Shown piece after piece: positions 1 to 21,837 of a stretch of 64,000 nucleotides of DNA (positions are counted from its first letter, which is position 1; the number at the start of each line of letters is the position of its first letter). The notes beneath the pieces are model-generated. The model saw only the letters and a program-made list of their open reading frames with translations. It did not search any database and was not told the origin of the DNA. Source of the stretch: Halorussus salinus (GTDB lineage Archaea; Halobacteriota; Halobacteria; Halobacteriales; Haladaptataceae); the NCBI RefSeq assembly GCF_004765815.2, contig NZ_ML974127.1, forward strand, positions 265,259 through 329,258, given 5' to 3'. A program made the position numbers and the translations under genes.

Positions 1-1
1 G

Positions 2-4159: not shown

Positions 4160-6859
4160 CTACGACGCCACGAGGAAGTCGCCGCTGACCGACTCGCGGG
4201 CGTCCCGGACGTAGGCGTACGTCGAACGCACGAGGTAGACGACCAGTCCCGCGAACCCGAGGAGGTAGGCCGCGGTCGAACCGTACATCGAGTAGCGGGC
4301 CAGCTGGTACTGGCTGGCCATCCGCTGGCGCTCGTCGGCGACGCGCTGGGCCTCCTCGGTCGCGCCCGCTTCGCGGAAGGCGGTCGCGGCCTCGCCGTAG
4401 GTCGCCTGCACCGCCGACGAGGTCCGCCCGAAGGCGTCCCACTTCGCCGGGTTGAGCATCAGCGGTTGGCCGAACACGACCGTCAGCATCTCGTCGCGCG
4501 CCTCGTCGTGGAGCTTTCGGGCCGACTGACGCTCCTCGTTGCCCTCCTTGACCGTCTCGGTGTAGGCGTCGAACGCCGCGGCCGACTCGGTGCGGAGGCG
4601 TTCGGCGCGCTCGTCGTCGCCTTGGAGCGAGGCGAGTTGGGCGAGTTGGCGCTTGATGTGGGCCTGCTCTATCTTCGAGACGTTTCCGGAGTCCAGTCGC
4701 GACTGGTAGTAGTCGGTCTGGCGGGTGACGAGTTGCTGGACCGTCTCGTCGGCCGCGGCCCGCGACTCGCCCGCCGAGTCGCGCAGTTGCGAGTCGTCCA
4801 GTTGCGAGACGTAGCTATCCAGCAGGTTGTACGTCGCGGCGGCCCGAACCACCTCGTCTTGGGCGGCCTCGTTGCCGTCGCTCGCCCGAATATCGCGGGC
4901 GTTCTCGACCGACTCGATGAACAGCAGTGTCGCTCGTCCGGCCGCGATAGAGGTCGAGAGGTCCGTCCGGGACACGTCGCCGCCGTCCCTGAGTTGGCCT
5001 TCGAGCGTGTCGAGGGCCGTCACCATCCCCGAAGCCGTCTCGTCCTGCCAGTCGCCCGACCCGGTGTACTCGTTCAGCGGGTCGCGTATCTGGTCGAACG
5101 AGTAGGGCTTGGCGGTCGCGGTGACGGTGACGGTGCGGTTCTCGACGTTCTCGCCCGCGACGCGGTACGTCCACGTGTACTCGCGGTAGAGTTCCGCACC
5201 CGTATCGAACCGAAGCGCGACGACGAACGGCGCGGCCTCGCCCGCGGTCAGCGTCTCGGGCGGGCGCTCGACCACCGTCAGCCACTGGTCCGGTCCGGAG
5301 ACCTTCGTCACCGACAGGTCGCTCACGTCGCGGTACTCCAAGTCCTCGGCCACGTCGGTACTCTTCGTGAGGTTCTTCGTGACGATCACGTCGCCGTAAC
5401 TCAGCGCGGTCTTCTCGACGGATAGCTTGACGCCGTGACTGACCGAAATTTGCGTATCGACCTGCTTGCTCCCGGCCTCCTCGGCGTTCACGTCGACGCT
5501 GAGTCCGTAGTTGCCTTCGGGCGTCGAGGGGTCGGCTTCGACTCGAACCCTCACCGTACCGGTCGATTGGCCAGCGATAGTGTCGGGCGCGTTCACGACG
5601 CTCGCGGTGACGCGACTGCTATCGGTACTCGCGCTCGCGCCTCGGAGGTTCATGTCCAAGTCGCCCTCGTTGGGGACCGTCACCTCGACGGTCTTGGTGT
5701 GGGAATCGACCTCGGACCGGGGCTGGTCGAACTCCATCGAGGTGTCGCTGGTCCCGAGGCTCCCGAACCGCGCCGGGTAGATGACCCGCCCGTTGAACTC
5801 TATCTTTTTGCCGACGCTGTTCTCGCCGTCCGGCTTGAGTCGGACCGTCCAATCGAGGTTGCTGTGCTGTGGCGCGCTGTCGGGCACCGACACGGACACC
5901 TCAGCGGTCGCCGACCCGCCGGGCGAGGTGTCGAGGTAACGCAGGCCGTCGAACGCGATGGAACCGTACTGGTCGGCGTTCGTCACCGTCGAGGAGACCC
6001 CGCTGATGCCGGTGTAGCCACCCTCCTCGGAGACGGTGAACTCGACGGTCTCGTCGCCGCCGACGAGGATGTCCCCGACTTCGACCTCACCGTTGTCCCC
6101 TGCGTCGAGGACTGCGGGCTTCGCCACCGTGACCGACACGTCGAAGCTCTCGGTCTTCCCGAGGTTGTCGGTGACCGTCGCTCGGAACTGGTAGTCGCCC
6201 TTCGAGACCGACTGGGCGGCCTCGATTTGGAGCGTCATCGACTTGCTGTCGCCAGCGCCGATTCTGTTCGGCAGGTTCTCGGCGTTCACCGCGAACCCGT
6301 CCGGAACGCCGCTGAAAGTGACTTCCGAGGGGCGCATCTGACCCTCTCCGTCGTTCGAGATGTCCACCTTCTTGCTGGCGCTTCCCTGATCGTTCGACTT
6401 GAACACCACGGTCACGTCCTGCGTGTCGATGAAACCGAACTGCGGTTCGGTCACTCTGACGGTGAGTTGTTTGCGCTCCGGGCCACTGCCAGCGGTGTAC
6501 GCCGTGTGGTACCCCTCGCTGGCGCTTGCCGGGATGGTCGCTCGGTAGCGCAGTTCGTACTCGTGGCCCGCTCGGACGCGCCACGAGGTTCCGGTCCCGT
6601 CCGCGGTTCCGTCGAGGTCGCTCCACTCTTGGAAGGCGAATTCGACGTTCCCGTCGGCCATCTGGCCGTCGACGTTGACCGTCCGATTCGAAGTCGCCTC
6701 GAAGGTCGTGGTCACGGTTCGCGTTATCTGGTCGCCGGAACTCGCGGCGGCCGCCGCCCGACTGACCGACACGTTCGACTGGGCCGTCGCCGCTCCGGCG
6801 AAGCCGTGGACCGCGACCAACAGCGCCAGACAGACCGCTACTGCACTGCGCTTATCCAT
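4160..6859 (-). CDS. Secreted, membrane-anchored Ig-like (NEW3/CARDB-type) protein
   Basis: Last gene of the FtsZ-like operon, 899 residues. An N-terminal Sec signal peptide (about residues 1-26, VCLALLVAVHGFAGAATAQS) is followed by a long beta-rich ectodomain of repeated Ig-like modules of the NEW3/COG1470 kind (motifs such as VDISNDGEG, TVPNEGDLDMN and GDYQFRATVTD). A mainly alpha-helical region (about residues 600-850) precedes one C-terminal membrane segment (YLLGFAGLVVYLV) and a short cytosolic tail. The topology is therefore outside with a C-terminal anchor. The start overlaps the previous gene by 8 bases. No enzyme motif is visible. It could be an envelope or S-layer contact protein of the system. 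Confidence 0.8.
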   Translation of the reverse strand: MDKRSAVAVCLALLVAVHGFAGAATAQSNVSVSRAAAAASSGDQITRTVTTTFEATSNRTVNVDGQMADGNVEFAFQEWSDLDGTADGTGTSWRVRAGHEYELRYRATIPASASEGYHTAYTAGSGPERKQLTVRVTEPQFGFIDTQDVTVVFKSNDQGSASKKVDISNDGEGQMRPSEVTFSGVPDGFAVNAENLPNRIGAGDSKSMTLQIEAAQSVSKGDYQFRATVTDNLGKTESFDVSVTVAKPAVLDAGDNGEVEVGDILVGGDETVEFTVSEEGGYTGISGVSSTVTNADQYGSIAFDGLRYLDTSPGGSATAEVSVSVPDSAPQHSNLDWTVRLKPDGENSVGKKIEFNGRVIYPARFGSLGTSDTSMEFDQPRSEVDSHTKTVEVTVPNEGDLDMNLRGASASTDSSRVTASVVNAPDTIAGQSTGTVRVRVEADPSTPEGNYGLSVDVNAEEAGSKQVDTQISVSHGVKLSVEKTALSYGDVIVTKNLTKSTDVAEDLEYRDVSDLSVTKVSGPDQWLTVVERPPETLTAGEAAPFVVALRFDTGAELYREYTWTYRVAGENVENRTVTVTATAKPYSFDQIRDPLNEYTGSGDWQDETASGMVTALDTLEGQLRDGGDVSRTDLSTSIAAGRATLLFIESVENARDIRASDGNEAAQDEVVRAAATYNLLDSYVSQLDDSQLRDSAGESRAAADETVQQLVTRQTDYYQSRLDSGNVSKIEQAHIKRQLAQLASLQGDDERAERLRTESAAAFDAYTETVKEGNEERQSARKLHDEARDEMLTVVFGQPLMLNPAKWDAFGRTSSAVQATYGEAATAFREAGATEEAQRVADERQRMASQYQLARYSMYGSTAAYLLGFAGLVVYLVRSTYAYVRDARESVSGDFLVAS

Positions 6860-7853: not shown

Positions 7854-7856
7854 TGT

Positions 7857-10643
7857 TTAGAACACCGTCCGTTCGAGTCGTTCGCGCAGTTCGTCGTGGT
7901 CGAACAGTTCGTCTATCGCCTCCAGCAGTCCGGCCGCCGCGAAGACGACCGCCGCACCCCGAACCGGGTCGTCGTCGGGCGCGTCGCGCACGAGTTGCTT
8001 GACGCCCTCCCAGAGTTCGCGGGCCGGAGCGACAACCGCCACGTCCGACCGCTCGTCGTTGATGCGGTCGTCCACCGCCTGCAGTTGGGTCCGGACCGGT
8101 TGGCGCTGTGCCGTGCGGTCCTCCCCGAGGAGACCGAACAACGTCTCGACCTCGAAGTCGCCGTCCCACGAGACGCGCGCGTCGGCCATGTCCACGCAGG
8201 CCCCGAACAGGTCGGTGTTGCGCTTGGTCGCCATCGCGTCGTCCACGAGTTCGACGGTCTCCTCGGCCGTGTCGAGGAGCGCCGCGACCACCTCGTCGGG
8301 GTCGGCGTCGGCGGTGGCGAACCGGTGGCCCTCCCGCGGGAGTCGTTCGACGGCGTCGAGGAGAGCGGTCACGACGCTCCCGTAGTAACGGGGAATCGCC
8401 ACGTCGCGGCCCGAACCGGTCGTCAGTTCGTCCACGTCGCGTCGAATCTCGGCGATGCGGTCGCGCTGTCGGCGACCCAGCGAGTACTCGAAACTCGCGT
8501 CGAGGGTCGCGCGAGCGCGCCGACCGTCGCGCACGCTGACGCGCTTGGACTGGACCGCGAAGGCGTCGCCGGGAATCTCGGTCCCGACCTCGTACTTGCC
8601 GACCGGGAGGCCGGTGAACCCGGCCACGCCCTCGTCGTCGGTCGTCCCCTCGCGCTGGCCGCCGACCTCGCGGACCGCCTGCTCGCGCGAGCGCGTCTCG
8701 ACGGGCAGTCCCGAGACCGGCGTCCCGTCCACGGTGACGGTCACGTCGAGGCTCCCGGTCCGGAGGTCGAGGGTCAGGGACTCCTCGGGGGCGCTACCGC
8801 CGCCGAGCGACACCGTGGTCGCGTCGCCGTCGTACTTCTCGTGGCTGGCGGACAGTTCGACCTCGTCGGCTTCGAGCGGGAGTTCGAACGCCACGCGTCC
8901 GTCGGAGTCCGTCCGGCCCGTACTGCTCTCGCCGCCGTCGAGCGTGGCCGTCACCGGGACGTTCGAGAGCGGTTCTCCGTCGTCGTCGGTCACGATCGCC
9001 GCGGCGTTCTGCGGGCCGAGTTCGAATCGAAGCGTCGCGTCGGAGTTGATGGTCCGCCGACGCTTCTGGTCGCTCACGTCGCCGGACTCGGCCGTGAACG
9101 TCCACCTGCCCCGGCCCAGTGACAGCGACCCGGTGCCGTCGGTCAACTCGATCTCCTCGCGGCCCCCGTCGGCGCGCGCCGTGCTGCCGTGCTTCTTGGC
9201 GACGACGGTCACCGGCTCGGCCGCCAGTTCGCTCCTCGCGGCGTCCATCGCTCGAAGCTGGACTTCGTGGTCGGTACCTCCCGAAGTCGCTCCGGCGCTT
9301 CCGCTCGAACTGTCTCCTCTGGAATGGAGGAACGCGCCGCCGATGACGCCGACGAGGAGAACTCCTCCGATACCGGCGACGAGCATCAGGTTGTCCTCGA
9401 TTAAGCTGAACGTCCCCGACGAGCCGTCGCCGCCGCTCCCGCCGTTCGCGGCGTCACCGGCCGCGTAGAACAGCGTATCGCTCGCCGATTCGTTGCCCGA
9501 TACCTCCGCGCGGACGAACTGCTCGCCCGTCACGACGAGGCGGTAGCTCCCGTTGGGGTGTAGGCGATAGCGCGTCGAACTCAGGTTCACGTCGCCGTTC
9601 TCCACGGGGACCGACACCGAGACGTACCGCGACTGGTTGGTCGCCGAGGAGGCCTGCGAGACGTTGGTCAGCCAGACGGTCGTTCGCGTCGCGGATACCG
9701 ACTCGTCGGCCAGCGACACGACGCTCCCGTTCTGCGTGACGTTCGCCGTAATCGTCTCGGTCGTGCGGGCCTGCTCGGTGACGTTCTCGAACAGCGGTTG
9801 GCCGTCGCGGTACGCCGAGACGGTCCAACTGCTCGCGGCCGCGAGCGCCGAATCGGACACTGTGAGTCGGCCGTCCGTCGCGGTCACTGCACCGGCGAAT
9901 CGCGCGCCGTTCGTCTCGACCGTGAGGTCGTACTCGCCGCCCGCGAACAGCGGGTTCGACACCGCGAGCGTCCCGCCGTCGAGCGCCGTGACGCTGGTCG
10001 CGCGCTCGACGTGCGCCCGGAGATTTATCGAGGTCGTCGCGCGGTTCGACACCGCGAGGTTCGCGTTCTCCTTGAGCGGGAGCGACAGCGCGCCCGCGTC
10101 GAACGAGACGGCGAGATACGAGTCGTTGCCCTCGTACTGGACCGTCCCCGACACCGGCTTCTTCGAGCCGCCGAGCGTCACCGCCACCGACTGGCCGCCG
10201 CCGTAGCCGAGCGCCTGCGTCAGCGGCACGCGGAGTTTCCCGTTCCCGAATTCGGCGTTCTTGGTCTTCCCGAACTTCAGGTGCCGGAGGTTCGCGGTCT
10301 CGTTGAACAGTTCGGTACCGTTCGACTTCACCGTCACCCGCGTCCGGTTCAGATTCTGTTTCGGAACGCTGAGTTTCTTCACCGGGACGGGGAACGTCTT
10401 CGTCGCGTTCTTCGTCGTCACGCCGACCGTCCTGCCGCCCGCGACCGAGACGGTAATCTTCTTCGTCGCGGTCGCGTTCTCGCCGAGTTGGACGACGAGC
10501 GTGTCGCCGTTCCGGGTGACGTGGTCGGTTCCGTCGTTGGCGGCCCCCAATCCGGCGACGCCCGCGACGACCGACAGCGCCAGCAGGGCCGCCAACAGCG
10601 CCGCCCCGAGGCGTTCGCGTCGTGAGGAGTTCGTCCCGGCCAT
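7857..10643 (-). CDS. Signal-peptide, beta-rich ectodomain, TM, cytosolic Ig-like/helical protein
   Basis: A protein of 928 residues. The signal peptide lies at about 11-34 (AALLAALLALSVVAGVAGLG). An ectodomain of short beta repeats runs to about 400, then one membrane segment at about 412-433 (LMLVAGIGGVLLVGVIGG). The inside half is unusual. It contains about three carboxypeptidase-regulatory-like Ig modules (for example DDDGEPLSNVPVTATLDG and VTVDGTPVSGLPVETRS), then a long helical C-terminal domain with no recognised family. The protein thus spans the membrane with Ig-like folds on both sides and sits directly downstream (1-base gap) of an FtsZ-like gene. It is a good candidate for the link between a cytosolic GTPase polymer and the envelope, though this is inferred from topology and position. 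Confidence 0.75.
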   Translation of the reverse strand: MAGTNSSRRERLGAALLAALLALSVVAGVAGLGAANDGTDHVTRNGDTLVVQLGENATATKKITVSVAGGRTVGVTTKNATKTFPVPVKKLSVPKQNLNRTRVTVKSNGTELFNETANLRHLKFGKTKNAEFGNGKLRVPLTQALGYGGGQSVAVTLGGSKKPVSGTVQYEGNDSYLAVSFDAGALSLPLKENANLAVSNRATTSINLRAHVERATSVTALDGGTLAVSNPLFAGGEYDLTVETNGARFAGAVTATDGRLTVSDSALAAASSWTVSAYRDGQPLFENVTEQARTTETITANVTQNGSVVSLADESVSATRTTVWLTNVSQASSATNQSRYVSVSVPVENGDVNLSSTRYRLHPNGSYRLVVTGEQFVRAEVSGNESASDTLFYAAGDAANGGSGGDGSSGTFSLIEDNLMLVAGIGGVLLVGVIGGAFLHSRGDSSSGSAGATSGGTDHEVQLRAMDAARSELAAEPVTVVAKKHGSTARADGGREEIELTDGTGSLSLGRGRWTFTAESGDVSDQKRRRTINSDATLRFELGPQNAAAIVTDDDGEPLSNVPVTATLDGGESSTGRTDSDGRVAFELPLEADEVELSASHEKYDGDATTVSLGGGSAPEESLTLDLRTGSLDVTVTVDGTPVSGLPVETRSREQAVREVGGQREGTTDDEGVAGFTGLPVGKYEVGTEIPGDAFAVQSKRVSVRDGRRARATLDASFEYSLGRRQRDRIAEIRRDVDELTTGSGRDVAIPRYYGSVVTALLDAVERLPREGHRFATADADPDEVVAALLDTAEETVELVDDAMATKRNTDLFGACVDMADARVSWDGDFEVETLFGLLGEDRTAQRQPVRTQLQAVDDRINDERSDVAVVAPARELWEGVKQLVRDAPDDDPVRGAAVVFAAAGLLEAIDELFDHDELRERLERTVF

Positions 10644-10644: not shown

Positions 10645-11853
10645 CTACCCCTCGTTGATTTCCATGTACTCGGTCAGGTTCTCCTCGATGCGCCGGAGTT
10701 CGTTCGCGGGCAGGCGGGCGTTCCCGAGCGACCGCCCCGACTGGAGGCTCTCCTTGTACTCCTCGAACTCGTCCCACGAGTGGTCGAGCAGGGGGTCCAA
10801 GTCGAACCCGCCGAGCAACAGCAACACGTCCACCTCGTTGCTCCGGTCCTGTTTGGGCGTGAGGCTGGTCATCCCCGAGGCACCCAGCAGACCGTGCTTG
10901 CGCTTCCACTCGTTGAAGGCGTTCTGCACGTCGGGTTCCGTGATGTCGCCGCTCTCTATCATGTGTTCGGGCGCTCGCACCACCGCGTAAGTGACCCGTG
11001 AGGTGCCCACGTCCATCGGGACGAAGGCGTTCTCGGCGGCCTTGTCGAACATGTACTCCATCTCGAAGAGGTCGCCGTTCAACTCGGTCGCCACCGCCGG
11101 GGTGAAGTGGTACGCCCCGATTTGGGACGGCACCGTCACGTAGTCCTGAATGTCGATGACGCCGCGGGTCTCCCGGCCCGCGCCGATCATCAGGTCGATG
11201 GCCGAGATTATCTGGTCGTTGACCTCGCTGTAGTCGGTGCCGGTGGTCTCGTCGTCGCTGAGATGCGAGTTGGCGACCAGCAACACCATGTCGGCGTTCT
11301 GGCTCCCGTCGTCCGACCGGAGGAGTCGCGAGAGACCGCAGACCGCGTTGAACTGGCGCTGGGGTGCCTCGTAGTAGTAGGGCCAGACCGCCAGCGCGGC
11401 GTGGATGGTGCTGTCCATCCACTGCTTGTGCTGGCTGGTGTCGAGACCGCTCCGGAACTGGTCGATGACGTAGGGAATCGACCCGTTGCCGGTGCCGCCG
11501 CCGAGCGTCGCGGCGTGGAGGAACGCGTCGGTGTGACCGCTCAGGTCGCTGATGCTGGCGACGATGCGGTCCAAGTCCTCGCGCGCGGCCTCCTTGCCGG
11601 TGACGAAGAAGTTGCCCGCGCCCTGCTGGGACCCGAACTCCAAGGCGTGGCGCGCCCACGGGTCGCCGTCGATGCGGTCCTCGATTCGGGTGATGGTGTT
11701 TCGGATGTCCGCGCGGTTCGTGTTCATCACGAGGATGCGGTCGTCGATACCGGGGTTGTCCGACCGTGTGAAAAACTGCGAGGCGATTCGCCCGCCACCC
11801 TCGCCGGAAGCGATGACCATCCACTGCGTGTACGTGTTCTGCTTGCTTGACAT
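10645..11853 (-). CDS. FtsZ/tubulin-like GTPase, paralogue C
   Basis: A protein of 402 residues that is neither a canonical FtsZ nor a CetZ. The glycine-rich T1 region is IASGEGGGRIA (about 14-24). The tubulin signature T4 loop is GGGTGNG (118-124), T6 is LLVANSHLS (about 191-199), and a T7-like DxxD (DIQD, 234-237) aligns by eye with the catalytic Asp pair of FtsZ. Nucleotide binding and hydrolysis therefore look possible. The C-terminal half is shorter and different from FtsZ and lacks the usual C-terminal tail peptide. It is flanked one base on either side by membrane-protein genes. It belongs with the noncanonical FtsZ-like/tubulin-like families; which subfamily cannot be settled without alignment. 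Confidence 0.85.
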   Translation of the reverse strand: MSSKQNTYTQWMVIASGEGGGRIASQFFTRSDNPGIDDRILVMNTNRADIRNTITRIEDRIDGDPWARHALEFGSQQGAGNFFVTGKEAAREDLDRIVASISDLSGHTDAFLHAATLGGGTGNGSIPYVIDQFRSGLDTSQHKQWMDSTIHAALAVWPYYYEAPQRQFNAVCGLSRLLRSDDGSQNADMVLLVANSHLSDDETTGTDYSEVNDQIISAIDLMIGAGRETRGVIDIQDYVTVPSQIGAYHFTPAVATELNGDLFEMEYMFDKAAENAFVPMDVGTSRVTYAVVRAPEHMIESGDITEPDVQNAFNEWKRKHGLLGASGMTSLTPKQDRSNEVDVLLLLGGFDLDPLLDHSWDEFEEYKESLQSGRSLGNARLPANELRRIEENLTEYMEINEG

Positions 11854-11854: not shown

Positions 11855-13960
11855 TTAGGCTCGTTTCGTTACTCCGTCGGAAGTGAGTTCGACCGACTCC
11901 CCGAACTCGGCGTCGGCGACGGCTTCCCGAATCACGTCGTCGGGGAGCGGTGCCGACAGGAACCGGCTTCTGAAGTCGTCGAACGTCATCGTCTCGTCGT
12001 CGTCGAGGTTGTGCTGGACGACCATCTCGACCTCCCGGTCGAGTTGCTCGCCGTCGTAGGCGACCACGCCGTCGGCGTCGGTCCGCGTGACCGAGAGGTC
12101 GGCCTCCTCGGCCCAGATGGCCAACAGGCACGGCACGTAGTCGTCGGTGATGGGGTAGTCCATCGACGCCGCCAGATACCCCTCGTCGTCGTACTGGTCG
12201 GTCAGGTCGTCTTCGAGGTCGGGCAGGTACTCGCGGATGTCCGCCTCGACGCCCTCGCAGACCTGCTCGCGCAGACCCACCTCGTCCATCGTGAGTTCGA
12301 CCCGCGCGTCGTCCTCGACCGTGACCGTCTCGGTCGGCGTCCGGTAGTCGTCGGGGTCCGGAACCGCCCGGACCTCGTACTCGCCGAAGGGGACCTCCTC
12401 GAAGGTGACCTCCTCGGCGAGGTGGGTCCGGCGGTGTTCGCTGTCGTCGTGGGCCGTGCCCTCGATTTCGATGGCGACGCCCCGCTTGGGACCGCCCTCG
12501 TCGAACTGGGCGAACACCGTCACGTCGTGGGTCTCGCCGTCGCCCGCCGCGACGAGCGCCGGTCCCGTCGAGTCGTAGGACACCTCGGCGTGCTTGCGGG
12601 CGTAGAGGTCCATGAACGCGCCCGCGTCCTTGACGGGCAGGTCGTCGGACGTGACCTCGGCGTTGGCCCGAATCTCTTGGTCGATGACCGACTCGATGTC
12701 GTCGTACGACCGCGCGACCGACGCCTTCTCCGAGAGGGCGTCGAGCGCGTTCGAGAGGTCGCCGACCGCGCCGGTCCACGTCAGCCGGAACTGGTCGAGG
12801 TCGTCGGTCCGCCGGAGTTGGGACTCGTACTCCTCGTCTCCAGCCGAGGGCCACTCGTAGTAGTCGGCGGGCACGTCGGCCCGGCCGAGCGCCGACAGGT
12901 CGTCTTCGAGGTCGCCCTCCATCTCCGCGACCATCTCGATACAGACCTCCCGGAGGTCGTCGCGATGCTCCCGGAGGTCGCTCACGTCGAGCGCCGAGTC
13001 CAGCGACGCCATCGCGGCGTCTATCTCCTCGACGCGCTCGACGTGGCGATTGGAGACGTACTCCTCGACCACCGACGACTGGACGGTCTCCAGCAGGTTC
13101 TCGACCGACTCGCGGTCGGCCTCGAACCGCCCGGAGAGGTCGCCTTCGAGCGCGGCCTGCGCGTCGAGTACCGCGTCGACCGCGCCGTCGTAGTCGTCGG
13201 CCTCGGCCCGCGACTGGGCGTCTTCGAGGAGGTCCCGAACCTGCGCGTCGTCCACCCGGCCGTCAACGTCGCCGAGGAGCGTCTCGACCTCGCCGCTGGC
13301 TCGCTCCACGACCGCGGCCGCGTCGGCGCGGTGGTCGGCCAGCACGTCTTCGAGTGCCTCGATTTCGTGGCTCGCGTCGTCCACGGCCTGCTGGCCGCGC
13401 CACGACCGAACGTCCACGAGGTCGGCGTCTTCGAGTCGGCCGAGGGTGTCGCGGAGTCGCCGGAGTTCGCTCCGGACGAACTCCTCGAAGGAGTCGGTCA
13501 GGGTCGCGTCGAGGTCCCGCACGTCCGACTGGATGCGCTCCAAGTCTTGGATGTCGGCCGACCCGAACCGCTTGGTCGAGTACGTTCCCGCCGCGGTGTC
13601 GAAGCTGACGCCCTGTTCTTCGAGGTCGTCGGCGACCTGCTCCACGTCGGTCTCCACGTCGTCGGCGGTCCAGTCGGGGTACTCGGTGCGAAGCGCCTCG
13701 AATTCCGTGTGGAAGTCCCGAAGGTCGGTCGCCGTCTCGGTCGCCTGCTGTTTGGTGTAGTTCGATTCGCTGGTACCCTGTCGGGAGACCACGCTCCGGA
13801 CGTAGACGCCGACGCCGACGACCAGTAGCGTCGGAATCCCGATGGCGATGAAGCCGACGCCGAGCTGTGAACTCGTGAACAGGAACAGTCCGAGTCCGAC
13901 CGCCGCCGCGACGATGACGATGCCGCCGATGCCGAGTGCCGATTTGGTTTCTCGTTTCAT
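11855..13960 (-). CDS. Membrane-anchored coiled-coil protein with Ig-like C-terminal module
   Basis: A protein of 701 residues. The ATG was chosen because it begins a typical positive N-terminus (MKRETK), follows directly on two membrane segments (about 9-28 and 32-52) and overlaps the previous stop (ATGA). The Lys/Arg-rich start puts the N-terminus and the large C-terminal part in the cytosol. Residues about 60-430 are strongly helical and acidic with heptad-like Leu/Val spacing, probably coiled coils. Residues about 500-600 contain a carboxypeptidase-regulatory-like Ig module (VTFEEVPFGEYEVRAVPD), and a small mixed domain ends the protein. It is probably a scaffold or membrane receptor for the adjacent FtsZ-like GTPase. 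Confidence 0.75.
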   Translation of the reverse strand: MKRETKSALGIGGIVIVAAAVGLGLFLFTSSQLGVGFIAIGIPTLLVVGVGVYVRSVVSRQGTSESNYTKQQATETATDLRDFHTEFEALRTEYPDWTADDVETDVEQVADDLEEQGVSFDTAAGTYSTKRFGSADIQDLERIQSDVRDLDATLTDSFEEFVRSELRRLRDTLGRLEDADLVDVRSWRGQQAVDDASHEIEALEDVLADHRADAAAVVERASGEVETLLGDVDGRVDDAQVRDLLEDAQSRAEADDYDGAVDAVLDAQAALEGDLSGRFEADRESVENLLETVQSSVVEEYVSNRHVERVEEIDAAMASLDSALDVSDLREHRDDLREVCIEMVAEMEGDLEDDLSALGRADVPADYYEWPSAGDEEYESQLRRTDDLDQFRLTWTGAVGDLSNALDALSEKASVARSYDDIESVIDQEIRANAEVTSDDLPVKDAGAFMDLYARKHAEVSYDSTGPALVAAGDGETHDVTVFAQFDEGGPKRGVAIEIEGTAHDDSEHRRTHLAEEVTFEEVPFGEYEVRAVPDPDDYRTPTETVTVEDDARVELTMDEVGLREQVCEGVEADIREYLPDLEDDLTDQYDDEGYLAASMDYPITDDYVPCLLAIWAEEADLSVTRTDADGVVAYDGEQLDREVEMVVQHNLDDDETMTFDDFRSRFLSAPLPDDVIREAVADAEFGESVELTSDGVTKRA

Positions 13961-15033
13961 AGGAGTCCTCCGAGGGTCGAGAGTCCGCCGAGTGCGACCA
14001 GTCCGCCCGCCGTCAGCGCGACCACGAGGAGCGCGAGGCCGACCGCCCGCGTCAACACGCCCAGCCCGTAGCTCACGTCCGAGTTGACCTGTCGGTCGTA
14101 CCGGATGGCTTCGAGTTTGCTCGCGGTCAGTTTCCAACCGGGGAGCGCGCCGACGACCAACCCGACGAGAGCCGCCCCGCCGAGGTTGAATAGCACCGTC
14201 GTCTTCGCGTCGCCTCCGGCGGTTTCGAGCGCCGAGCGGTATCGCTTCATCGCGCGCTCGGCCTCGGCGTCCGCTCGCCGCTCGTCGCTCCGAGCGGCTT
14301 CGAGCGCCGCCAGCGCGGTCGTCCGTCCGTCCGCCCGCCACGCCGTCTCGTAGAGGAGCGTTTCGAGCCGCTTACCGCGAGTCGCCACGGCGCTCCGGTC
14401 GTCCGCGACCGCGGCGACGACCGTCTCGTTGATCGTTTCGGAGTCGGCGTCACCGGATTCGAGCGCGGCGGCCGACTCGTTCAGTCGCTCCGCCGAGTCG
14501 TTGAGGTCCGAGAGCGACGCGAGGTAGTTCCGTTCGGCTTCCCGGTACTCCTCGGCCGCCGACGCGTTGTCGAAGGACAGCGAGCCGTTCGCCAGCCTCG
14601 AATCGACGCTCGGCGTCTGCTGGACGACGACCGAGACGCCCGCCAAGTTCTGCTTGCCCGAGACGAGTCCCGGCAGGTCCACGCTGGACTCCTCGCCGGT
14701 CACGCGCACGGTCACGGTCGCGTCGGTTCGGTTCAAGACTTCCAAGCCCTCGGGGTTCTGGAGCTTCCACTCCGGCCCGCGGGTGGACTTCACGTCGCCG
14801 TCCTTACACAGGGCGACGCGGAACGTCGTTCCGGGGTAGAGCGTCGTCTCGTCGGTCAGAACCTGCTGTGGCGTCGGGTTCGACGCGCCCGGCAGGACGC
14901 CGACCAGCACCTCGCCGCCGGAGGTCTGGCCGCACGCCGCCTCCGCGTCGGGGTAGGTCGCCGCACCCGCAGTCGCCGGGACCGCCCCGAAAAGTAGGGA
15001 AACGACGATCAGTCCGGCCAAAATCCGTCTCAT
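13957..15033 (-). CDS. Secreted/anchored protein with two C-terminal TM segments
   Basis: A protein of 358 residues. The N-terminal signal peptide (LAGLIVVSLLFGAVPATAGA) is followed by a small beta-rich domain with two cysteines (AACGQTSGG, VALCKDGD) that may pair outside the cell, then an acidic helical stalk (about 140-260). Two hydrophobic segments end the protein (LGGAALVGLVVGALPGW and VGLALLVVALTAGGLVALGG). Both ends of the gene overlap neighbours by 4 bases (ATGA), so it is translationally coupled in the middle of the operon. No family is recognised. Confidence 0.75.
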   Translation of the reverse strand: MRRILAGLIVVSLLFGAVPATAGAATYPDAEAACGQTSGGEVLVGVLPGASNPTPQQVLTDETTLYPGTTFRVALCKDGDVKSTRGPEWKLQNPEGLEVLNRTDATVTVRVTGEESSVDLPGLVSGKQNLAGVSVVVQQTPSVDSRLANGSLSFDNASAAEEYREAERNYLASLSDLNDSAERLNESAAALESGDADSETINETVVAAVADDRSAVATRGKRLETLLYETAWRADGRTTALAALEAARSDERRADAEAERAMKRYRSALETAGGDAKTTVLFNLGGAALVGLVVGALPGWKLTASKLEAIRYDRQVNSDVSYGLGVLTRAVGLALLVVALTAGGLVALGGLSTLGGLL

Positions 15034-15296
15034 CCGCTCTCACCTCGGTTCACGTACGCCACGACGCCGCCGCCGACCAGTCCGACCGCGAGTCCGAGTC
15101 CGGCCCCCGCGATTCGGGGAACCCACGGGTCCTCGGCGGCCGCCAGCGCGGCCGTCGTCGCGTCCGTCTGTGCGTCTATCTGGTCGGCCAGCGCGGACGC
15201 GGCCACGGGGTCGGCGACGCTCGCGGCGGTTCCGGCCGACGCCGCGAGGAGCGTCGAGACGGCCACAAAGCCTATCAAGATGACACTTCGTCTCAT
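15030..15296 (-). CDS. Small secreted/membrane protein (88 aa)
   Basis: The start was set at the ATG that overlaps the stop of the upstream FtsZ-like gene (ATGA). It gives an 88-residue protein with a signal-like N-terminus (SVILIGFVAVSTLLAASAG), an Ala/Asp-rich helix and a C-terminal membrane segment (IAGAGLGLAVGLVGGGVVAYV). Longer upstream extensions in this frame lie inside the FtsZ-like gene and were rejected. Its strict coupling to the GTPase gene suggests stoichiometric co-production. It may be a small membrane tether or a subunit of the neighbouring two-TM protein. No family is recognised. Confidence 0.7.
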   Translation of the reverse strand: MRRSVILIGFVAVSTLLAASAGTAASVADPVAASALADQIDAQTDATTAALAAAEDPWVPRIAGAGLGLAVGLVGGGVVAYVNRGESG

Positions 15297-16498
15297 GCCA
15301 CTTGCCGCGCCTCGTTCTGTCGCTCGTACTCGTCCGCTCGCTCCTCTATCTCCGTGATTCGGTCCACGTTCTCGCGCCGATAGGTGTAGAGCGAGGTGAA
15401 CGACGCCAGATTCCGGCGCGTAAGCGCGACGCCCATGTTCACCTCGGGGGACTTCGATTCGAGGAACCGACGCATGGTCGAGGTCTCGATGCCCTTGCTC
15501 CCGCCCGAGACGTACTCGACGGGCGCGCGGACGAGACCGATGGCCTTCTCCGCGTCGTCGGGCGACGCCTCCGAGAGCGTCCGCTTGCTCGCCGCGAGTC
15601 GGGGGAGCGCGCTGCTGTCTACCGACTGACCGCCGACGAACGGCAACAGGTAGCCCAGCAGGGAGCGTGTCATCGTGACCGACCGACCGAGCGTCGCGTA
15701 CCCCGGCCGGGCGTTCGTCCCTCGCGTGTCGAACGACAGCGAGGTCACCACGTCCTGTAGGTCCACGACCGGCGGGTCCACGTCGTCGTACTCGCCGGGG
15801 TCGATTCGCTCCAAGGTCGATCCCGAGATGAGATCGACCAGCCCCGACGCCACGTACTCGTTGTACTCCGAGAAGCGGCCCTCCGCGGCGTCCTCGTAGG
15901 CGAGCCGCTGGTTGTCCACGAGGATGACGCCGTCGACGGTCTCCTCCAGTCGGTCGAGTCCGTAGACGGTGTTCCACGCCTGTCGGCCCGCGCTGATCTG
16001 TTCGTCGTCCTCTGCGACTGGTCCCTTCGTGTTGGGCAACACCGCGACGCCGATGACCTGCGCCACGCCGTCGGTGTACTCCTTGATGGCCTCGGCAACG
16101 TGGGGCGCGATACCGCAGCCGGTACCGCCGCCCAGTCCCAGACAGACGAACGCGAACGGGATGTCTCCCGGCGTCCCGTCCGGTTCGTCGAAGTGCGCCG
16201 AGAGCTTGTCCAGCAACTCCTCGCGGTGGCTCTCCATCACTTGGTCGGCCTGCACTGGATTCCGACCGAAGCCACCGGTCACCTGCTCCTCGAATCCCGG
16301 CGTGCCTCGCTCGACGAGACCGTGACGCTCGGCGATGCCGTACTGGTGTGCCTCGCTCACGTTCGAGAGGTTCCGAAGGTCCCGGATGGTCGAATTGAAC
16401 ACCAAGGGAGCCGCGGGCGTGGAGACGCGCCTGTGCCCGAACACGTCGTCCACGATTGCGCTGCCCGCTTGCCCGGTGCCAGCAAATATATATACCAT
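15293..16498 (-). CDS. FtsZ/tubulin-like GTPase, paralogue B
   Basis: A protein of 401 residues. The ATG was chosen at MVYIFAGTGQAG so that the T1 loop (FAGTGQAGSAIV) sits close to the N-terminus as in FtsZ, and because it follows a promoter-like element. The T4 signature is GGGTGCG (123-129), preceded by LGL as in FtsZ. T6 is VILVDNQRL (191-199), helix H7 is recognisable (YNEYVASGLVDLI), and the T7-like DLQD (246-249) keeps the two acidic residues needed to hydrolyse the neighbour's GTP. The C-terminus is helical with many charged residues. The stop overlaps the start of the 88-aa membrane protein. Of the three paralogues this one has the most canonical GTP-binding loops. Confidence 0.85.
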   Translation of the reverse strand: MVYIFAGTGQAGSAIVDDVFGHRRVSTPAAPLVFNSTIRDLRNLSNVSEAHQYGIAERHGLVERGTPGFEEQVTGGFGRNPVQADQVMESHREELLDKLSAHFDEPDGTPGDIPFAFVCLGLGGGTGCGIAPHVAEAIKEYTDGVAQVIGVAVLPNTKGPVAEDDEQISAGRQAWNTVYGLDRLEETVDGVILVDNQRLAYEDAAEGRFSEYNEYVASGLVDLISGSTLERIDPGEYDDVDPPVVDLQDVVTSLSFDTRGTNARPGYATLGRSVTMTRSLLGYLLPFVGGQSVDSSALPRLAASKRTLSEASPDDAEKAIGLVRAPVEYVSGGSKGIETSTMRRFLESKSPEVNMGVALTRRNLASFTSLYTYRRENVDRITEIEERADEYERQNEARQVA

Positions 16499-16527: not shown

Positions 16528-16545
16528 CGAACACATATACCTAAC
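16528..16545 (-). promoter_or_regulatory. Probable internal promoter before FtsZ-like B
   Basis: The longest gap but one in the operon (150 bp) carries a minus-strand TATA-like element (GGTATATGTG, 16531-16540) centred about 39 bases before the ATG. An A/T-rich upstream flank is consistent with a BRE. The predicted transcript would have a very short leader. This would let the downstream eight genes be expressed separately from the first three. Confidence 0.5.
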
Positions 16546-16648: not shown

Positions 16649-18124
16649 CTACCCCCGAAGTCGTCGGAGCATCACGCTGTACTCGTTTCGCTCGTAGAGC
16701 TTCTCCACGTGGTCGAGCGTCTCGTCGGCCGCCGCGGCGAGTCCGGTCGCTCGGGCGTCGTCGCCGACCGACGCGGCCTCCTCGGCGTCCTCGCGGAGCG
16801 CGTCCACCAGCGAGAGGAAGTGCAGTGGGATGCTGTGGTTGTGGTCCCTGCGCCCGTCCACGTAGCGGTCCTCGAACTCCTCGCGGCGGTCGGCCACCGA
16901 CGCGATGCGCTCGTCGGCCCCGGTCCCCGATTCGTTCGCGCCCTCGTCCGTGTCCGCGCCGTCGCCGAACGCGTCGTCGCCGAACATCCCGTCCCCACCG
17001 GTCTCGCCGACACTCCCGCTCGATTCGTCGAGTCGGTCGAGGAGGGTCCGGTCGTAGAATCGGAGTTCGTTGCGGACCGCGTAGGGGATGACCGCGTTCG
17101 AGTCGTCGGCCCGGTCGGCCATCCCGCGGAGGTCGCCGACCCGCTCGTCCAGCGCGTCCGCGACCGGTCCCGACCGCCCGTCGAGTCGGTCGGCCACGCT
17201 ATCAGCCAACTCGGCGACCTCCTCGGGGTCCAACTCCGCCACGATGCTCTGGGTCGTGGAGGCGGCGTCCAACTGCTCGACCGCGGTGTCGAGCGCGGCC
17301 CGGAGGTCGCCGATGCCCGGCGAGGCGAGGCGGTCGAGCATCCGCTTGGCGACCGCGCTCTCGGGGCGCTGTTCCCGGCGGACCGCGGCCGCGACCGACT
17401 GGACGCCCTCGTCGTCGCGTTCGTCGCTCCCGCTCTCGTCGCTGGCGTCGCTTTCGTCGTTCTCGTCGGCCGCCGCGACCTCCTCGACCAACTGCCGGAG
17501 GCCCGCCGCCACGTCGCCGTCCGCGCGGTCGAGGTGGTCCGCGGCGCGCCGGGCGTCGCCGGGCGTGACGGCTCTGTCGTCGGGGACTTCGCTCACCGCG
17601 CGTTCGAGCGCCCGCTGGCGGTCGAGCGCCGCCACCGCACGCTCCAACGCGGCTTCGAGTTCGTCGGGGTCCGCTCGGTCGGGCGCGGCTACGGCGTCCA
17701 GCAGTCGGCGGGCCGCGGGCGACGAGGGCGTCCGGTCGCGCTGGAGTCCGGTCGCCGCAGTTGCGACCGCGCCGTCCGCGTCCGAATCGCCGGTCCGGGG
17801 CGGGCGAACCGAGAGCCTGTCACCCTCGACCGCGCGAGCGAGCGCCTCGGCCTTCTCGACGCTCGTGGCGTCCACGGCGGGCGGGTCCCGGAGGTGACGG
17901 TCGAGGTCGGCGTCGCCCGCGAGGTCGTCGAGCGCGGCTTCGAGGTCGTCGAGTCGCCGGGCTATCGCGTCGGGGTCCTCGCGGGCGTCGAGTCGCCGCG
18001 CGATGTCGGCGAGGTCGTCCTCGTCGTCGGAGCCGCGACCGAAGAACCCGGCCACCCCGAGCGCGGCCAGCGAACAGACGGTTCCGGCTACCGCGAGGCC
18101 GCCGAGGGGAACGAGCGTCTGCAT
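16649..18124 (-). CDS. N-terminally membrane-anchored acidic coiled-coil protein
   Basis: A protein of 491 residues. The ATG was chosen because it gives an immediate membrane segment (LVPLGGLAVAGTVCSLAALG, about 3-25) and lies one base past the upstream FtsZ-like stop. The remainder is acidic and helical with repeated Arg/Leu/Ala heptads (DAIARRLDDLEAALDDLAGD), interrupted by two Asp/Glu/Ser-rich linkers (about 215-235 and 375-400). No enzymatic motif is seen. It follows FtsZ-like A directly, so a role as its membrane anchor or regulator is plausible, in the way ZapA/EzrA/SepF-type proteins serve FtsZ, although no sequence relation to those is visible. Confidence 0.7.
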   Translation of the reverse strand: MQTLVPLGGLAVAGTVCSLAALGVAGFFGRGSDDEDDLADIARRLDAREDPDAIARRLDDLEAALDDLAGDADLDRHLRDPPAVDATSVEKAEALARAVEGDRLSVRPPRTGDSDADGAVATAATGLQRDRTPSSPAARRLLDAVAAPDRADPDELEAALERAVAALDRQRALERAVSEVPDDRAVTPGDARRAADHLDRADGDVAAGLRQLVEEVAAADENDESDASDESGSDERDDEGVQSVAAAVRREQRPESAVAKRMLDRLASPGIGDLRAALDTAVEQLDAASTTQSIVAELDPEEVAELADSVADRLDGRSGPVADALDERVGDLRGMADRADDSNAVIPYAVRNELRFYDRTLLDRLDESSGSVGETGGDGMFGDDAFGDGADTDEGANESGTGADERIASVADRREEFEDRYVDGRRDHNHSIPLHFLSLVDALREDAEEAASVGDDARATGLAAAADETLDHVEKLYERNEYSVMLRRLRG

Positions 18125-18125: not shown

Positions 18126-19739
18126 TCAGGCCATGTTCTCCCGGCCGAGACACGAGAACAGCGGGTCCACGAGGTGCCAGATGTCCCGGAGGTTTTCGGC
18201 CTGCTGGTTGTTGCCCTCCTCTTTGAGTTGCTTGGCGTGGTCGTACATCGCTTCGAGCGACGGCATCCGGGGGTTCCAGAGGGCACCCCAGAGGTACACG
18301 TCGTCCAGATACGGGATGACCATCTGGCTGACGTGGATGTCGATGGACCCGGCACTGCTCACGTCGTCGACGTTCAGGAACTCGTCGCCGCCGATTATCT
18401 CCCTGAGCGTGTTGTCGTTGACGTAGGGCGAGACTTGCTCCATCTTCTCCTCGGGGCCGTAGACGATGAAGGTACCACCCCACGCGGTCGTCGGGTCGAA
18501 GTCCGAGAGCCGGTTTTGGAACAGGGTGTTTCGGACCATGATTTCGAGCGACGACTTGTCGAGCTTTGCGTCGCGCGACCGCCCGAGAACCGGCGCGAGA
18601 ATGACCGCAGGGGTGTACTCGCGGTCGATGTCCAGCGGATACTTGTCCTCGACCGGCCGGAAGCTGTCGGACACGTCGAACACCTCGCCCTGAATCGACA
18701 TCGTGGCGTCCTGATCCACGATTTGGGGCGTCGAGGACATGGTGAACGCCTCCAAGTACGCGACCAGCGGCTTGTTGAGTTCGGTGTACTGGGGCGGGTT
18801 GTACTTCTCGATGCCGTCGATGCGGGGCTTCACGTCGCCCTGCACGTCCTGCAGTCGCTCGTTGTTGAACGGGATGATGGCGTCGGCCGTCTGGGAGATG
18901 CGCGCCAGTCCGACCGCGCCGTTGGTCCGCGCTCGTCCGCCGAACTTGTCCTCCGCCGAGGGGATGACGACCGAACTCAGCAGGGCCTTGTCGATGACGT
19001 AGTCGTCCGAGAGGACCTCCTCACGGACTTTCTCGGCCAGCGGCGGGGTCGAACCGCACCCGGTCCCCTTGGTGACGCTGTGGACGAACATGATAGCTTG
19101 GGCGTCCCGGATGTCTTGGGGGTCCATGTCCCAGCGGTCCCGGAAGGGGTTGCCCTCCTCGAAGTCGGCCCGGACGACCTTCTCGCCGAGGTCCCAACGC
19201 CGACCCATCCCGGAGTAGTCCTGCACGCCGAACCCGATGATGGCGTTGGGTAACAGGTCGTTACGGCTGTACTGCTTGAGTTCTTGGGCGTAGTAGGTCT
19301 GCTCCAACTCGGCGATGTTGGTGTTGAGCATCCCGTACCCGGCGAGGCCGCCGCGCCACACCATCGCTCGCTCCTCGTTGTTGCGCTCCAAGGTGTTTTT
19401 TCGGAGTAGGATGGCGTCCATGATGTTGTTGCCCGCGCCGCCGACGCCGATCATGTACCACTTCTTGCCGTACGCCGAGTCCAGCAGGTCGTCGTCCATC
19501 GCGGGACCGTCGTCCATCGGGGTCCCTATCCGATCGACGGACCCGGAGTCGTCCGGTTCCGAGTCGTCCTCGTCGCCGAGGTCCGCGGGTTCGCCCTCCT
19601 CGAACAGTCGGTCGTACCGGTCGCTGTACACCGCCCGGACCGACGTTTCGTCCGCGGCGTGCGAGCCGAGGAGGTGTTCGTCGAGGCTGTCTTCGTCCCA
19701 TTCGGTCTCCGTCTGAAAGCAGATTCTGCACTTTGTCAT
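18126..19739 (-). CDS. FtsZ/tubulin-like GTPase, paralogue A, with N-terminal C2H2 zinc finger
   Basis: A protein of 537 residues. Residues 4-27 have the spacing C-x2-C-x14-H-x4-H (C4, C7, H22, H27), a C2H2-type finger. An acidic linker follows, then the GTPase domain. T1 is IGVGGAGNN (97-105) as in FtsZ. T3 includes GMLNTN. The T4 signature is altered to TKGTGCGS (223-230), with Lys in place of a glycine. T6 is IIPFNNERL, and a T7-like DVSD lies at 355-358. The zinc finger is not part of FtsZ, CetZ or tubulin as known to me. The finger could recruit a protein, membrane component or nucleic acid; the sequence does not say which. Confidence 0.85.
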   Translation of the reverse strand: MTKCRICFQTETEWDEDSLDEHLLGSHAADETSVRAVYSDRYDRLFEEGEPADLGDEDDSEPDDSGSVDRIGTPMDDGPAMDDDLLDSAYGKKWYMIGVGGAGNNIMDAILLRKNTLERNNEERAMVWRGGLAGYGMLNTNIAELEQTYYAQELKQYSRNDLLPNAIIGFGVQDYSGMGRRWDLGEKVVRADFEEGNPFRDRWDMDPQDIRDAQAIMFVHSVTKGTGCGSTPPLAEKVREEVLSDDYVIDKALLSSVVIPSAEDKFGGRARTNGAVGLARISQTADAIIPFNNERLQDVQGDVKPRIDGIEKYNPPQYTELNKPLVAYLEAFTMSSTPQIVDQDATMSIQGEVFDVSDSFRPVEDKYPLDIDREYTPAVILAPVLGRSRDAKLDKSSLEIMVRNTLFQNRLSDFDPTTAWGGTFIVYGPEEKMEQVSPYVNDNTLREIIGGDEFLNVDDVSSAGSIDIHVSQMVIPYLDDVYLWGALWNPRMPSLEAMYDHAKQLKEEGNNQQAENLRDIWHLVDPLFSCLGRENMA

Positions 19740-19793
19740 TGTTGTCGCTCGCGTCTGTCTCCCGCTGTCTGTCGCTCTCGTACCGTGCGCCGG

Positions 19794-19847
19794 TCTCCTG
19801 CCGTCGGTCGCTTTCCTGCCACCGCTCGCTCTCCTGCCGTCGGTCGC
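19794..19847 (-). repeat. 18-bp tandem repeat, three copies, in operon gap
   Basis: The 154-bp gap between the four-TM coiled-coil gene and FtsZ-like A contains three 18-bp units (19794-19811, 19812-19829, 19830-19847). The outer two are identical and the middle one is diverged. The gap 19740-19893 holds no other feature I can support. Confidence 0.7.
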
Positions 19848-19893
19848 TCGCCCGTCACGTCCGTCGTCGGTCGCTCGTCCGCCGTCGCGAGAC

Positions 19894-21837
19894 TCACGCG
19901 TACTGCTCCTGATACCGCTCGTGGAGCGCGTCTATCGCCCGGTCGGTCGAGGTCCCGTCTTTCGGCACTAACTCTACGAATCCCGGCGGCGCGCCCTCCT
20001 GCACGTCGAACTCTGCGACCACGTCCGTCTGGCGCTCGGCGAACTGCTCCAAGCGATTCAGCACCGTGGGCGTGGCGACGCTCTCGGGGAGGTCGTCGGT
20101 CTGGAGCTGTGCCCGGTCGGCGTCGGTCTCGCGTCCGGCGTTCTTCAGCTCTCGGAGGACGAACAGCACCGAGTCGATTATCTCCTCGGGGCGTGCCCGC
20201 TCGTCCCGCCGGTCGCGGCTGTCGTCGGCGTCCCGGCCGCTCGCGTCTCGACTCCCTGCCTCTCGACTCTCTGCCTCCCGGCCGTCGCCGCGGCTCTCGA
20301 CAGCCCCGACCGACCCGGAACCGGACGCGGCGCGAGCGGCGTCGCTCCCGGCAGTCGCTGGCTCCTCGGGGTAGGTGAGCGACACCGCGCCGTCTTCGAC
20401 CCGGAACTCCACGTCGTAGTCGCGCTCGAACGCCGGTCGGAGTTCCGCGACTAGCTCCTCGTCTACGCCGCTCGGGAGCGAGACGCGCTCGCCGCCGTGG
20501 TCGATGGTCCCGACCACGCTCCACAGGAACTCCACGAGCGTCACGAGTTCGCCCGCGTCGGCCGCGGCCGACTCCACCCGGCGCTCGGCGTCGTCGAACC
20601 GACAGTCGTGGAGGTCGTCTTTCCCCGCGTCGAGTTCCGAGCGGACGTTCCGGACGCTCGGGAGGTCGTCGTGACGCCCTTCGATTGCCACCTCGGCGAG
20701 TCGGTCGGCGACCTGCCCCTCGAACCGCTCGGTCTTGTTCTCGACCGTTTCGAGGTCCGCCTCGGCCGCCTCGGCCGTCTCGGCGAACGCGGCCTCGCGC
20801 TCGCCGACGTGGGCCTCGATTCGCTCGACGTGGTCGTCCACCTGCCCGACGGCCGCGCCGACCGTCTGGAGGTCGTCGCCCTCCTCGACGTGGTTCGACA
20901 GCACGTCGCTCACGCGGTCGAGGTGGACCGACGCGTCGAACGCGGGCACGTCTACCTCGCGGAAGCGACTCGGCAAGTTCACGAGTTCGTAGGCTCGGTC
21001 GTACCGCGACCAGCACTGGACGGTGCCGTAGGTGGTCGTCACGCCCGAGGCGACCCGCTCGCGGAGTTCGTCGTCGATTCGCTCGACTTCGGCCGCCGGG
21101 TCGAGCGCGTCCACGCGACTCCGGAGCGCGGCCGCGTCCGCACGAAGCCGGTCGGCCGACTGGCGCTCGGCGGCGTCGAGGTCCTCCGCGATGTCGTCGC
21201 ACTCGCGGCGGAATTCCCGGCGAGAGTCCTTCGCGCGCTCGACGCCGGTCGGCGCGACTTCCGAGAGCGCGTCGAGGTCGCCGATTCGCCGCCGGTAGGT
21301 TTCCTCGAACTCCTCGCGCTTCTCGTCCAGCTCCGCGGTCACTTCGGCGAGTTCGGCCGACTTCTCCTCGACTACCTGCTCGTCCCAGTCGTGACGAAGG
21401 GCGGCCCCGATGGCCGCGCCCGAGGCCACCACCGGCACTGCGAAGAAGCCGACGACCTGCACCGTCGGCACCTCCATGCCGAACATCGGCGCGTAGACGC
21501 CGAAGAAGAGCGCGAAGAAGAGGACCGAGACGAGTCCGGCGGCCGCGAAGGTCACGTCCCGGTTGCGCCGTCGGAACTGGGCGACGCCCTGCGCGCCCCA
21601 CGCGCCCGCGATGAGGATAAAGAGGCCGAACACGAGCGTCGGACTCTGCCACATCAACACGGCGGCGGCGTCGAACACCGCGACCGACCGAATCGCGCCT
21701 TGGACACCGCCGAGTCCCGCCGACCCGAGCGTCGTCTCTACCATCGCCAACGTCGTCTGCACGAACGTCGCAAGTATCGGTACCCCTGCGAGCCCCCACG
21801 CCGCGAGCGTCGCTTTCGTTTCACGACCTGTAGCCAT
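19894..21837 (-). CDS. Four-TM coiled-coil membrane protein, first gene of FtsZ-like operon
   Basis: A protein of 647 residues. It starts at the ATG that follows a promoter-like element; a GTG one codon upstream is possible. Four hydrophobic segments fill about residues 12-150 (for example LVFGLFILIAGAWGAQGVAQ and VSVLFFALFFGVYAPMFG). Next comes a long charged helical region (about 160-430) with strong coiled-coil character (ELAEVTAELDEKREEFEETY). A central domain is followed by a Ser/Arg/Asp-rich linker and a C-terminal helical domain of about 110 residues. Four segments with a basic N-terminus place the coiled coils in the cytosol. It heads the operon and is probably a membrane platform. 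No family is recognised. Confidence 0.75.
   Translation of the reverse strand: MATGRETKATLAAWGLAGVPILATFVQTTLAMVETTLGSAGLGGVQGAIRSVAVFDAAAVLMWQSPTLVFGLFILIAGAWGAQGVAQFRRRNRDVTFAAAGLVSVLFFALFFGVYAPMFGMEVPTVQVVGFFAVPVVASGAAIGAALRHDWDEQVVEEKSAELAEVTAELDEKREEFEETYRRRIGDLDALSEVAPTGVERAKDSRREFRRECDDIAEDLDAAERQSADRLRADAAALRSRVDALDPAAEVERIDDELRERVASGVTTTYGTVQCWSRYDRAYELVNLPSRFREVDVPAFDASVHLDRVSDVLSNHVEEGDDLQTVGAAVGQVDDHVERIEAHVGEREAAFAETAEAAEADLETVENKTERFEGQVADRLAEVAIEGRHDDLPSVRNVRSELDAGKDDLHDCRFDDAERRVESAAADAGELVTLVEFLWSVVGTIDHGGERVSLPSGVDEELVAELRPAFERDYDVEFRVEDGAVSLTYPEEPATAGSDAARAASGSGSVGAVESRGDGREAESREAGSRDASGRDADDSRDRRDERARPEEIIDSVLFVLRELKNAGRETDADRAQLQTDDLPESVATPTVLNRLEQFAERQTDVVAEFDVQEGAPPGFVELVPKDGTSTDRAIDALHERYQEQYA

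Follow-up and report, generated by a model that had tools for sequence, protein, structure and literature searches.

Results

An eleven-gene locus with three tubulin-superfamily GTPases

The window, by which we mean the whole stretch of 64,000 nucleotides that was analysed, carries on its minus strand, between 4160 and 21840, eleven closely spaced genes, numbered here from g1 (the most upstream) to g11. High GC3, acidic products and orthologs in the same order at 24 other haloarchaeal loci support all eleven as real genes, and all lie on the minus strand, as stated in an earlier note on this DNA. Gene starts were in part picked from alignments; g1 begins at 21840, and g3, g4 and g7 probably begin at 18124, 16498 and 13960. 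At eight of the ten junctions, rather than the six counted earlier, neighbouring genes overlap or are no more than 3 bp apart (1, 4-overlap, 4-overlap, 4-overlap, 1, 1, 3 and 8-overlap), and the two gaps above 100 bp that the earlier note had listed measure 154 bp (g1/g2) and 150 bp (g3/g4; 114 bp if g4 starts at 16534).

The topologies given below were read from hydropathy alone, and by this measure the layout of transmembrane (TM) and signal segments is conserved among the proteins of the operon. The upstream module, M2, begins with g1 (19894..21840, 648 aa; orthologs at 24 haloarchaeal loci), in which three to four predicted N-terminal TM helices precede a cytosolic coiled coil. It continues with g2 (18126..19739, 537 aa), GTPase A, which has an N-terminal C2H2 zinc finger and the T4 loop VTKGTGCGST, and ends with g3 (16649..18124, 491 aa), with a predicted N-terminal TM and a coiled coil. 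The core module, M1, contains GTPase B, g4 (15293..16498, 401 aa; T1 GQAG, T4 GGGTGCG), and GTPase C, g8 (10645..11853, 402 aa; T4 GGGTGNGS); the loops TKGTGCGS, GGGTGCG and GGGTGNG reported earlier for g2, g4 and g8 are thus correct as written. Between the two GTPases of the core loci lies g7 (11855..13960, 701 aa), with two predicted N-terminal TM segments, a cytosolic coiled coil and a weak SpaA-like beta domain. Here g4 is also followed by g5 (15030..15296, 88 aa; signal-like N-terminus, single TM), which has a positional counterpart at other loci, and by g6 (13957..15033, 358 aa), with a signal peptide, an ectodomain and two C-terminal TM segments. The last member of the core is g9 (7857..10643, 928 aa), in which a signal peptide and N-terminal ectodomain are followed by a TM at about residues 421-439 and by a cytosolic portion of CarboxypepD_reg-type beta domains with a helical C-terminus. 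The downstream pair consists of g10 (6852..7853, 333 aa; signal peptide, helical ectodomain, C-terminal TM) and g11 (4160..6859, 899 aa; signal peptide, beta-sandwich ectodomains, helical stalk, C-terminal TM). A signal-like N-terminus is therefore found in five products (g5, g6, g9, g10 and g11), where three or four had been proposed.

Housekeeping genes flank the locus. On one side lie genes for RNA polymerase subunits and an Hjc-like gene, and directly upstream of g1 (window 22060-23160) lie two tRNA-Asp genes (22225-22298 and 23086-23159); a duplicated tRNA-Asp 3' end, spotted by eye at about 22090-22130, resembles an old integration site. On the other side come a convergent operon and then two small genes that are crcB-like by sequence and adjoin the start of that operon (L199:10262-11042). 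The genome is that of a Halorussus, and H. amylolyticus, H. halobius and H. litoreus are its nearest relatives that bear this gene set.

A convergent AAA+ operon beyond g11

The earlier note had closed the set at 4160 with its eleventh gene. Directly after g11, however, on the opposite strand, stands the operon d3-d2-d4-d1-d0 (module M3), which encodes an AAA+ ATPase, a beta-propeller/Ig protein and three cytosolic proteins and of which only d0 and the end of d1 fall inside the window. The final gene, d0 (679..3903, plus strand, 1074 aa), combines a beta-propeller (PQQ_2, 40.7 bits) with Ig-like domains (CARDB, 29.8 bits). The AAA+ ATPase d1 (PF00004, 107.7 bits; 580 aa) has its 3' part at 1..682, also on the plus strand, and its full gene at L199:14199-15941; upstream of it, beyond the window, follow d4 (L199:13591-14232), d2 (L199:12546-13589) and d3 (L199:11180-12490). 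By profile, d1 scores higher against Cdc48/p97 (188 bits) than against Vps4B (112 bits), and searches for Vps4_C and MIT domains matched neither. Katanin offers an analogy, with its AAA protein and WD40 propeller next to homologues of tubulin, but a severing activity of this type is not claimed, d1 being nearest to Cdc48/p97.

The model of d2 shows a small N-terminal alpha/beta domain and a helical hairpin; Foldseek returned nothing for it below 0.001, and in VIA-align its match to Vipp1 (Z 7.8) was level with many others, these rows being generic helical hairpins. No significant ESCRT-III match was obtained for d4, and PDB searches with the d3, d4 and d2 profiles gave chance or designed-repeat matches alone, with d3 having no meaningful PDB match. 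By gene order, d3 and d2 may correspond to the winged-helix families arCOG11740/11741. The ESCRT label of the d operon is thus not confirmed by the present profile and structure comparisons.

Three GTPase families outside FtsZ, CetZ and FtsZl1

All three GTPases score above the curated PF00091 threshold of 33 bits (g2, 46.8; g4, 45.7; g8, 36.1), and PDB searches with their profiles return FtsZ, CetZ and tubulin as the best matches. Against CetZ1, the g4 profile aligns over the full length (E 2e-22) and the g8 profile over the GTPase domain (E 4e-14). The AlphaFold2 model of g8 (pLDDT 88, pTM 0.90) predicts a complete two-domain tubulin/FtsZ fold, the best structural matches of which are CetZ, FtsZ and tubulin, with CetZ1 (4b46) at a TM score of 0.71/0.85, the latter by target length (E 1e-17).

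In an IQ-TREE analysis of 90 sequences, g2, g4 and g8 each formed a separate clade with full or near-full support, on stems that match the FtsZ stem in length. The CetZ clade, which takes in the tandem pairs described below (support 95-97), and the FtsZ clade (support 100) both leave them out. Their membership of CetZ is ruled out by this placement. Membership of FtsZ1/FtsZ2 fails both on the tree and on TIGR00065, against which they score 30.8, 38.8 and 28.5 bits with a cut-off of 295. They also lie outside FtsZl1, both on the tree and by its profile (PF13809, cut-off 27 bits), for which g4 scores 20.4 bits and g2 and g8 are unmatched. We conclude that g2, g4 and g8 are three distinct families of the tubulin/FtsZ superfamily outside FtsZ, CetZ and FtsZl1. 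AU tests do not separate alternative deep branching orders of g2, g4, g8, CetZ and FtsZ, and g4 as sister to CetZ is compatible with the data (p 0.575).

In the tubulin superfamily, acidic residues of the T7 region complete the active site of the partner subunit. T7-like acidic pairs are invariant in g4 (D246/D249, in register with the T7 region of CetZ) and in g8 (D234/D237). In g2, the canonical DxxD is replaced by NKPLVxFLEAFTMSS, in which E330 of LEAFTMSS is invariant; g2 may not activate hydrolysis by the usual route. Its zinc-finger residues C4, C7, H22 and H27 are invariant in 22/22 sequences, and the finger is retained in two highly divergent relatives. A divergent paralog of g8 with a degraded GGGTG loop (PGGKASW) occurs in Halobellus salinus (L067:11298-12488), solitary and near ribosomal-stalk-type genes.

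Conservation of the locus and its GTPase core

Of 26 haloarchaeal loci besides this one, 24 preserve the order of all eleven genes, and the remaining two (G042 and Halobellus salinus) have g4-g11 alone. Orthologs of g4 and g8 (for the latter E <1e-90, with the next match at 1e-17) occur in an identical set of 27 of 242 Halobacteria genomes. Beyond haloarchaea, relatives of g8 are found in ANME-2/Methanoperedens, Hydrothermarchaeota/Pyrohabitans, Altiarchaeota and Micrarchaeota. Methanoperedens and Hydrothermarchaeota-type genomes keep g4-g7-g8 together, with g10-g11 divergent just upstream and g9 close by; in ANME-2c and Altiarchaeum g8 stands apart from the other core genes. Even so, all 12 archaeal genomes with a stand-alone g8 that were tested also contain g4. 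Among the genomes sampled, then, g4 and g8 are never apart; these counts come from related, and hence not independent, genomes that cover several phyla. As a separate observation, the solitary g8 genes of ANME-2c (L090-L102, L118) are mostly divergent from a conserved gene of 470-480 aa (cluster c6).

The earlier note had tied its proposal, a transmembrane system centred on FtsZ-like GTPases, to the GTPases falling outside the FtsZ and CetZ clades and to the neighbours recurring in other genomes; both are what we find, the neighbour families being conserved together with their order. Judged by this conservation, g1-g11, with g4-g7-g8 and g9/g10/g11 at its core, is one system, and the presence of its two-tubulin core in very distant archaea makes it look old.

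Within haloarchaea the distribution is patchy, about 89% of the sampled Halobacteria, including the congeners G024, G172 and G176, lacking the locus. This bears on three other readings. A defence or mobile-element cassette inserted at the tRNA-Asp site could account for the patchiness and for the tRNA-Asp genes and tRNA 3'-end remnant adjoining g1. We give it next to no credence, however, because the families are old and divergent with a conserved gene order, no integrase is present among the genes read, upstream flanks differ between genera, and PADLOC gave no meaningful match, the g1 coiled coil being weakly similar to ZorA/JetC. An accessory cell-division apparatus, to which FtsZ-superfamily GTPases with membrane anchors would be suited, is in turn very improbable: most Halobacteria do without it, and besides the locus the host genome carries two genes of the FtsZ clade and five that are CetZ-like, which means that division and shape are already covered. 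Finally, the genes may build a CetZ-like cytoskeleton that is tied to the S-layer and controls shape or patterns the surface, with no membrane remodelling. The strong envelope link of the gene set, the closeness of full-length g4 to CetZ1 and the g4+CetZ grouping, which the AU test does not reject, all speak for this possibility. We nevertheless hold it to be rather unlikely, given its presence in a mere 27/242 haloarchaeal genomes and an AAA module, which is not among the known features of CetZ.

The third GTPase travels with the AAA module

Genes d1-d3 adjoin the g operon at 11 of 14 haloarchaeal loci besides this one; in the other three cases they lie elsewhere in the genome (one) or are missing (two). 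Among 242 Halobacteria genomes, orthologs of g2 and of d3 are found in an identical set of 25. Both genes are also present in Haloquadratum and Halovenus, and both are missing from G042, G048, two Halobellus genomes and all non-haloarchaeal genomes tested. Three Halopenitus-type genomes carry g2 and d3 unlinked, the d operon lying 80-260 kb off or on another contig. The joint loss of M2 and M3 represents few independent events. The shared distribution indicates that the third GTPase module travels with the AAA module and that g4-g11 can lack both; since the AAA/propeller operon co-varies with the g operon, the set exceeds eleven genes, and since M3 is absent outside haloarchaea, the AAA motor is not essential for the core. 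Tubulin-superfamily genes of the CetZ clade occur as tandem pairs at L210:8361-11309, L211:2160-4481 and L212:1360-3747; in the Halopenitus-type genomes, such pairs and the unlinked d operon are about 3 kb apart.

These data also bear on a reading already published for the locus (PMC10936438), namely ESCRT-type vesicle budding or protein sorting, in which an AAA/ESCRT-III engine pinches the membrane and the GTPases are accessory. The AAA+ gene, the propeller+Ig protein and the whole d operon co-vary with g2, as such a reading would have it. On the other hand, the GTPase core of Halobellus, Methanoperedens, Hydrothermarchaeota and Micrarchaeota comes without a d operon, d1 lies nearer Cdc48/p97 than Vps4B and has neither a Vps4_C nor a MIT match, and d2 and d4 have no significant match to ESCRT-III. 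We regard it as unlikely, though as the most probable of the rival readings.

A few genomes suggest that modules are exchanged with FtsZl1 parts. In two that lack g2, the operon has an FtsZl1 gene (PF13809) and a gene for a membrane protein, d8, at a distance of 6-11 kb. G081 contains a g1-g2-g3 set standing by itself that adjoins FtsZl1, d8 and a propeller protein, and in G031 such a set lies alongside a g9-like protein and a large d0-sized protein. These cases point to probable sharing of components with the FtsZl1 systems of PMC2875224. As to positions, FtsZl1 (1157 aa) and d8 lie near short operons lacking g1-g3 and d1-d4 at L191:5717-10579 and L192:6959-11862, and the divergent stand-alone g1-g2-g3 modules, which come without g4-g8, at L208:1-13543 (FtsZl1/d8/propeller) and L209:2654-16166 (g9-like).

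Discussion

A proposed modular envelope-remodelling machine

The model to which we lean, with modest confidence, is that the locus encodes a membrane-anchored tubulin-superfamily system that remodels the envelope and is made of exchangeable modules: the core M1, M2 and the soluble AAA+ module M3. In M1, g4 and g8 would act as an obligate pair, most likely as a mixed GTP-dependent filament at the inner face of the membrane, where polymerisation is assumed from the fold and direct contact between the two proteins would be expected. With its two TM segments and cytosolic coiled coil, g7 could anchor this filament, and g9, by virtue of its ectodomain, single TM and cytosolic beta domains, could relay its state to the surface proteins g10 and g11, which would face the S-layer. 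In haloarchaea, M2 (the zinc-finger GTPase g2 with the membrane coiled-coil proteins g1/g3) would join the core to M3, and M3 (d1-d4 with the propeller d0) would disassemble or remodel filaments, thus turning assembly over. As a result, a patch of envelope would be bent, sorted or shed. The model builds on sequence and prediction, namely on gene content, conservation, co-occurrence, the separateness of the GTPase families and the predicted tubulin fold of g8. Weighing against it are the small number of independent events behind the joint loss of M2 and M3, the lack of M3 outside haloarchaea and the separation of g8 from the other core genes in ANME-2c and Altiarchaeum. Envelope or membrane remodelling is the most likely output, with vesicle formation or protein sorting, after PMC10936438, as the leading specific guess.

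All in all, the locus has the look of an envelope-remodelling machine of old origin, which was partly noted in 2024 and has otherwise hardly been studied. We would give slightly less than an even chance to the bolder proposal that it is an ancient, undescribed archaeal cytoskeleton, in which a transenvelope machine is built around g4 and g8 in Halobacteria, Methanoperedens/ANME-2, Hydrothermarchaeota, Altiarchaeota and Micrarchaeota, and in which the haloarchaeal zinc-finger tubulin couples an AAA/ESCRT-like module, or the module is swapped with FtsZl1 parts.

Prokaryotic systems with two different tubulin-family subunits are, to our knowledge, rare. If g4 and g8 co-polymerise, they would constitute a third archaeal tubulin-family cytoskeleton alongside FtsZ and CetZ, and a system that requires three tubulin-family GTPases as well as surface proteins and an AAA ATPase would be new. 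If the model holds true, archaea would have a tubulin-type filament physically joined to an ESCRT-like module, with implications for how tubulin-type and ESCRT-type membrane machines became linked. Several of the carriers are culturable haloarchaea, and the system is thus open to experiment.

Relation to known systems

The earlier note saw no likeness to the known FtsZ1/FtsZ2/SepF and CetZ neighbourhoods of haloarchaea. The g1-g11 locus does, however, correspond to the Halo_adaptin ESCRT loci described by Makarova et al. in 2024 (PMC10936438), for which the text available to us lists an AAA ATPase, upstream cytosolic genes, a membrane protein, a propeller+Ig “adaptin-like” protein and a CetZ-related protein, with Haloquadratum walsbyi as an example. 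The g and d operons match these loci in gene order, domain content and species, and H. walsbyi J07HQW1 carries the locus with d3 and g2; going by that text, the locus itself had already been described. It speaks, however, of one CetZ-related protein where we find three GTPase families, and the part available to us mentions neither the ESCRT-free core of other archaea nor the strict link between g2 and the d operon.

Non-canonical haloarchaeal tubulin-superfamily proteins in quasi-tandem copies with coiled-coil neighbours were described in 2023 as “Halo.Tub” (PMC9871819); they may be the present families or, alternatively, the tandem pairs of the CetZ clade in L210-L212.

For the FtsZl1/PF13809 system of Makarova and Koonin (2010; PMC2875224), in which an FtsZ-like protein is encoded in operons with membrane proteins, membrane remodelling was likewise predicted. 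The likeness lies in the combination of FtsZ-like and membrane proteins and in the FtsZl1 genes near the operon or the g1-g2-g3 modules. Unlike FtsZl1, g2, g4 and g8 are not PF13809 proteins, measure 400-540 aa and have no long coiled-coil tail, and, as the earlier note had remarked, there is no VWA protein, domain profiles giving none among g1, g2, g4, g6-g11 and d0-d4.

CetZ (4b46, 4b45) is approached in the predicted fold of g8, the full-length profile match of g4 and the T7-like acidic residues; the present families nevertheless differ from it in their position outside the CetZ clade, in the obligate pairing of g4 with g8 and in their transenvelope partners.
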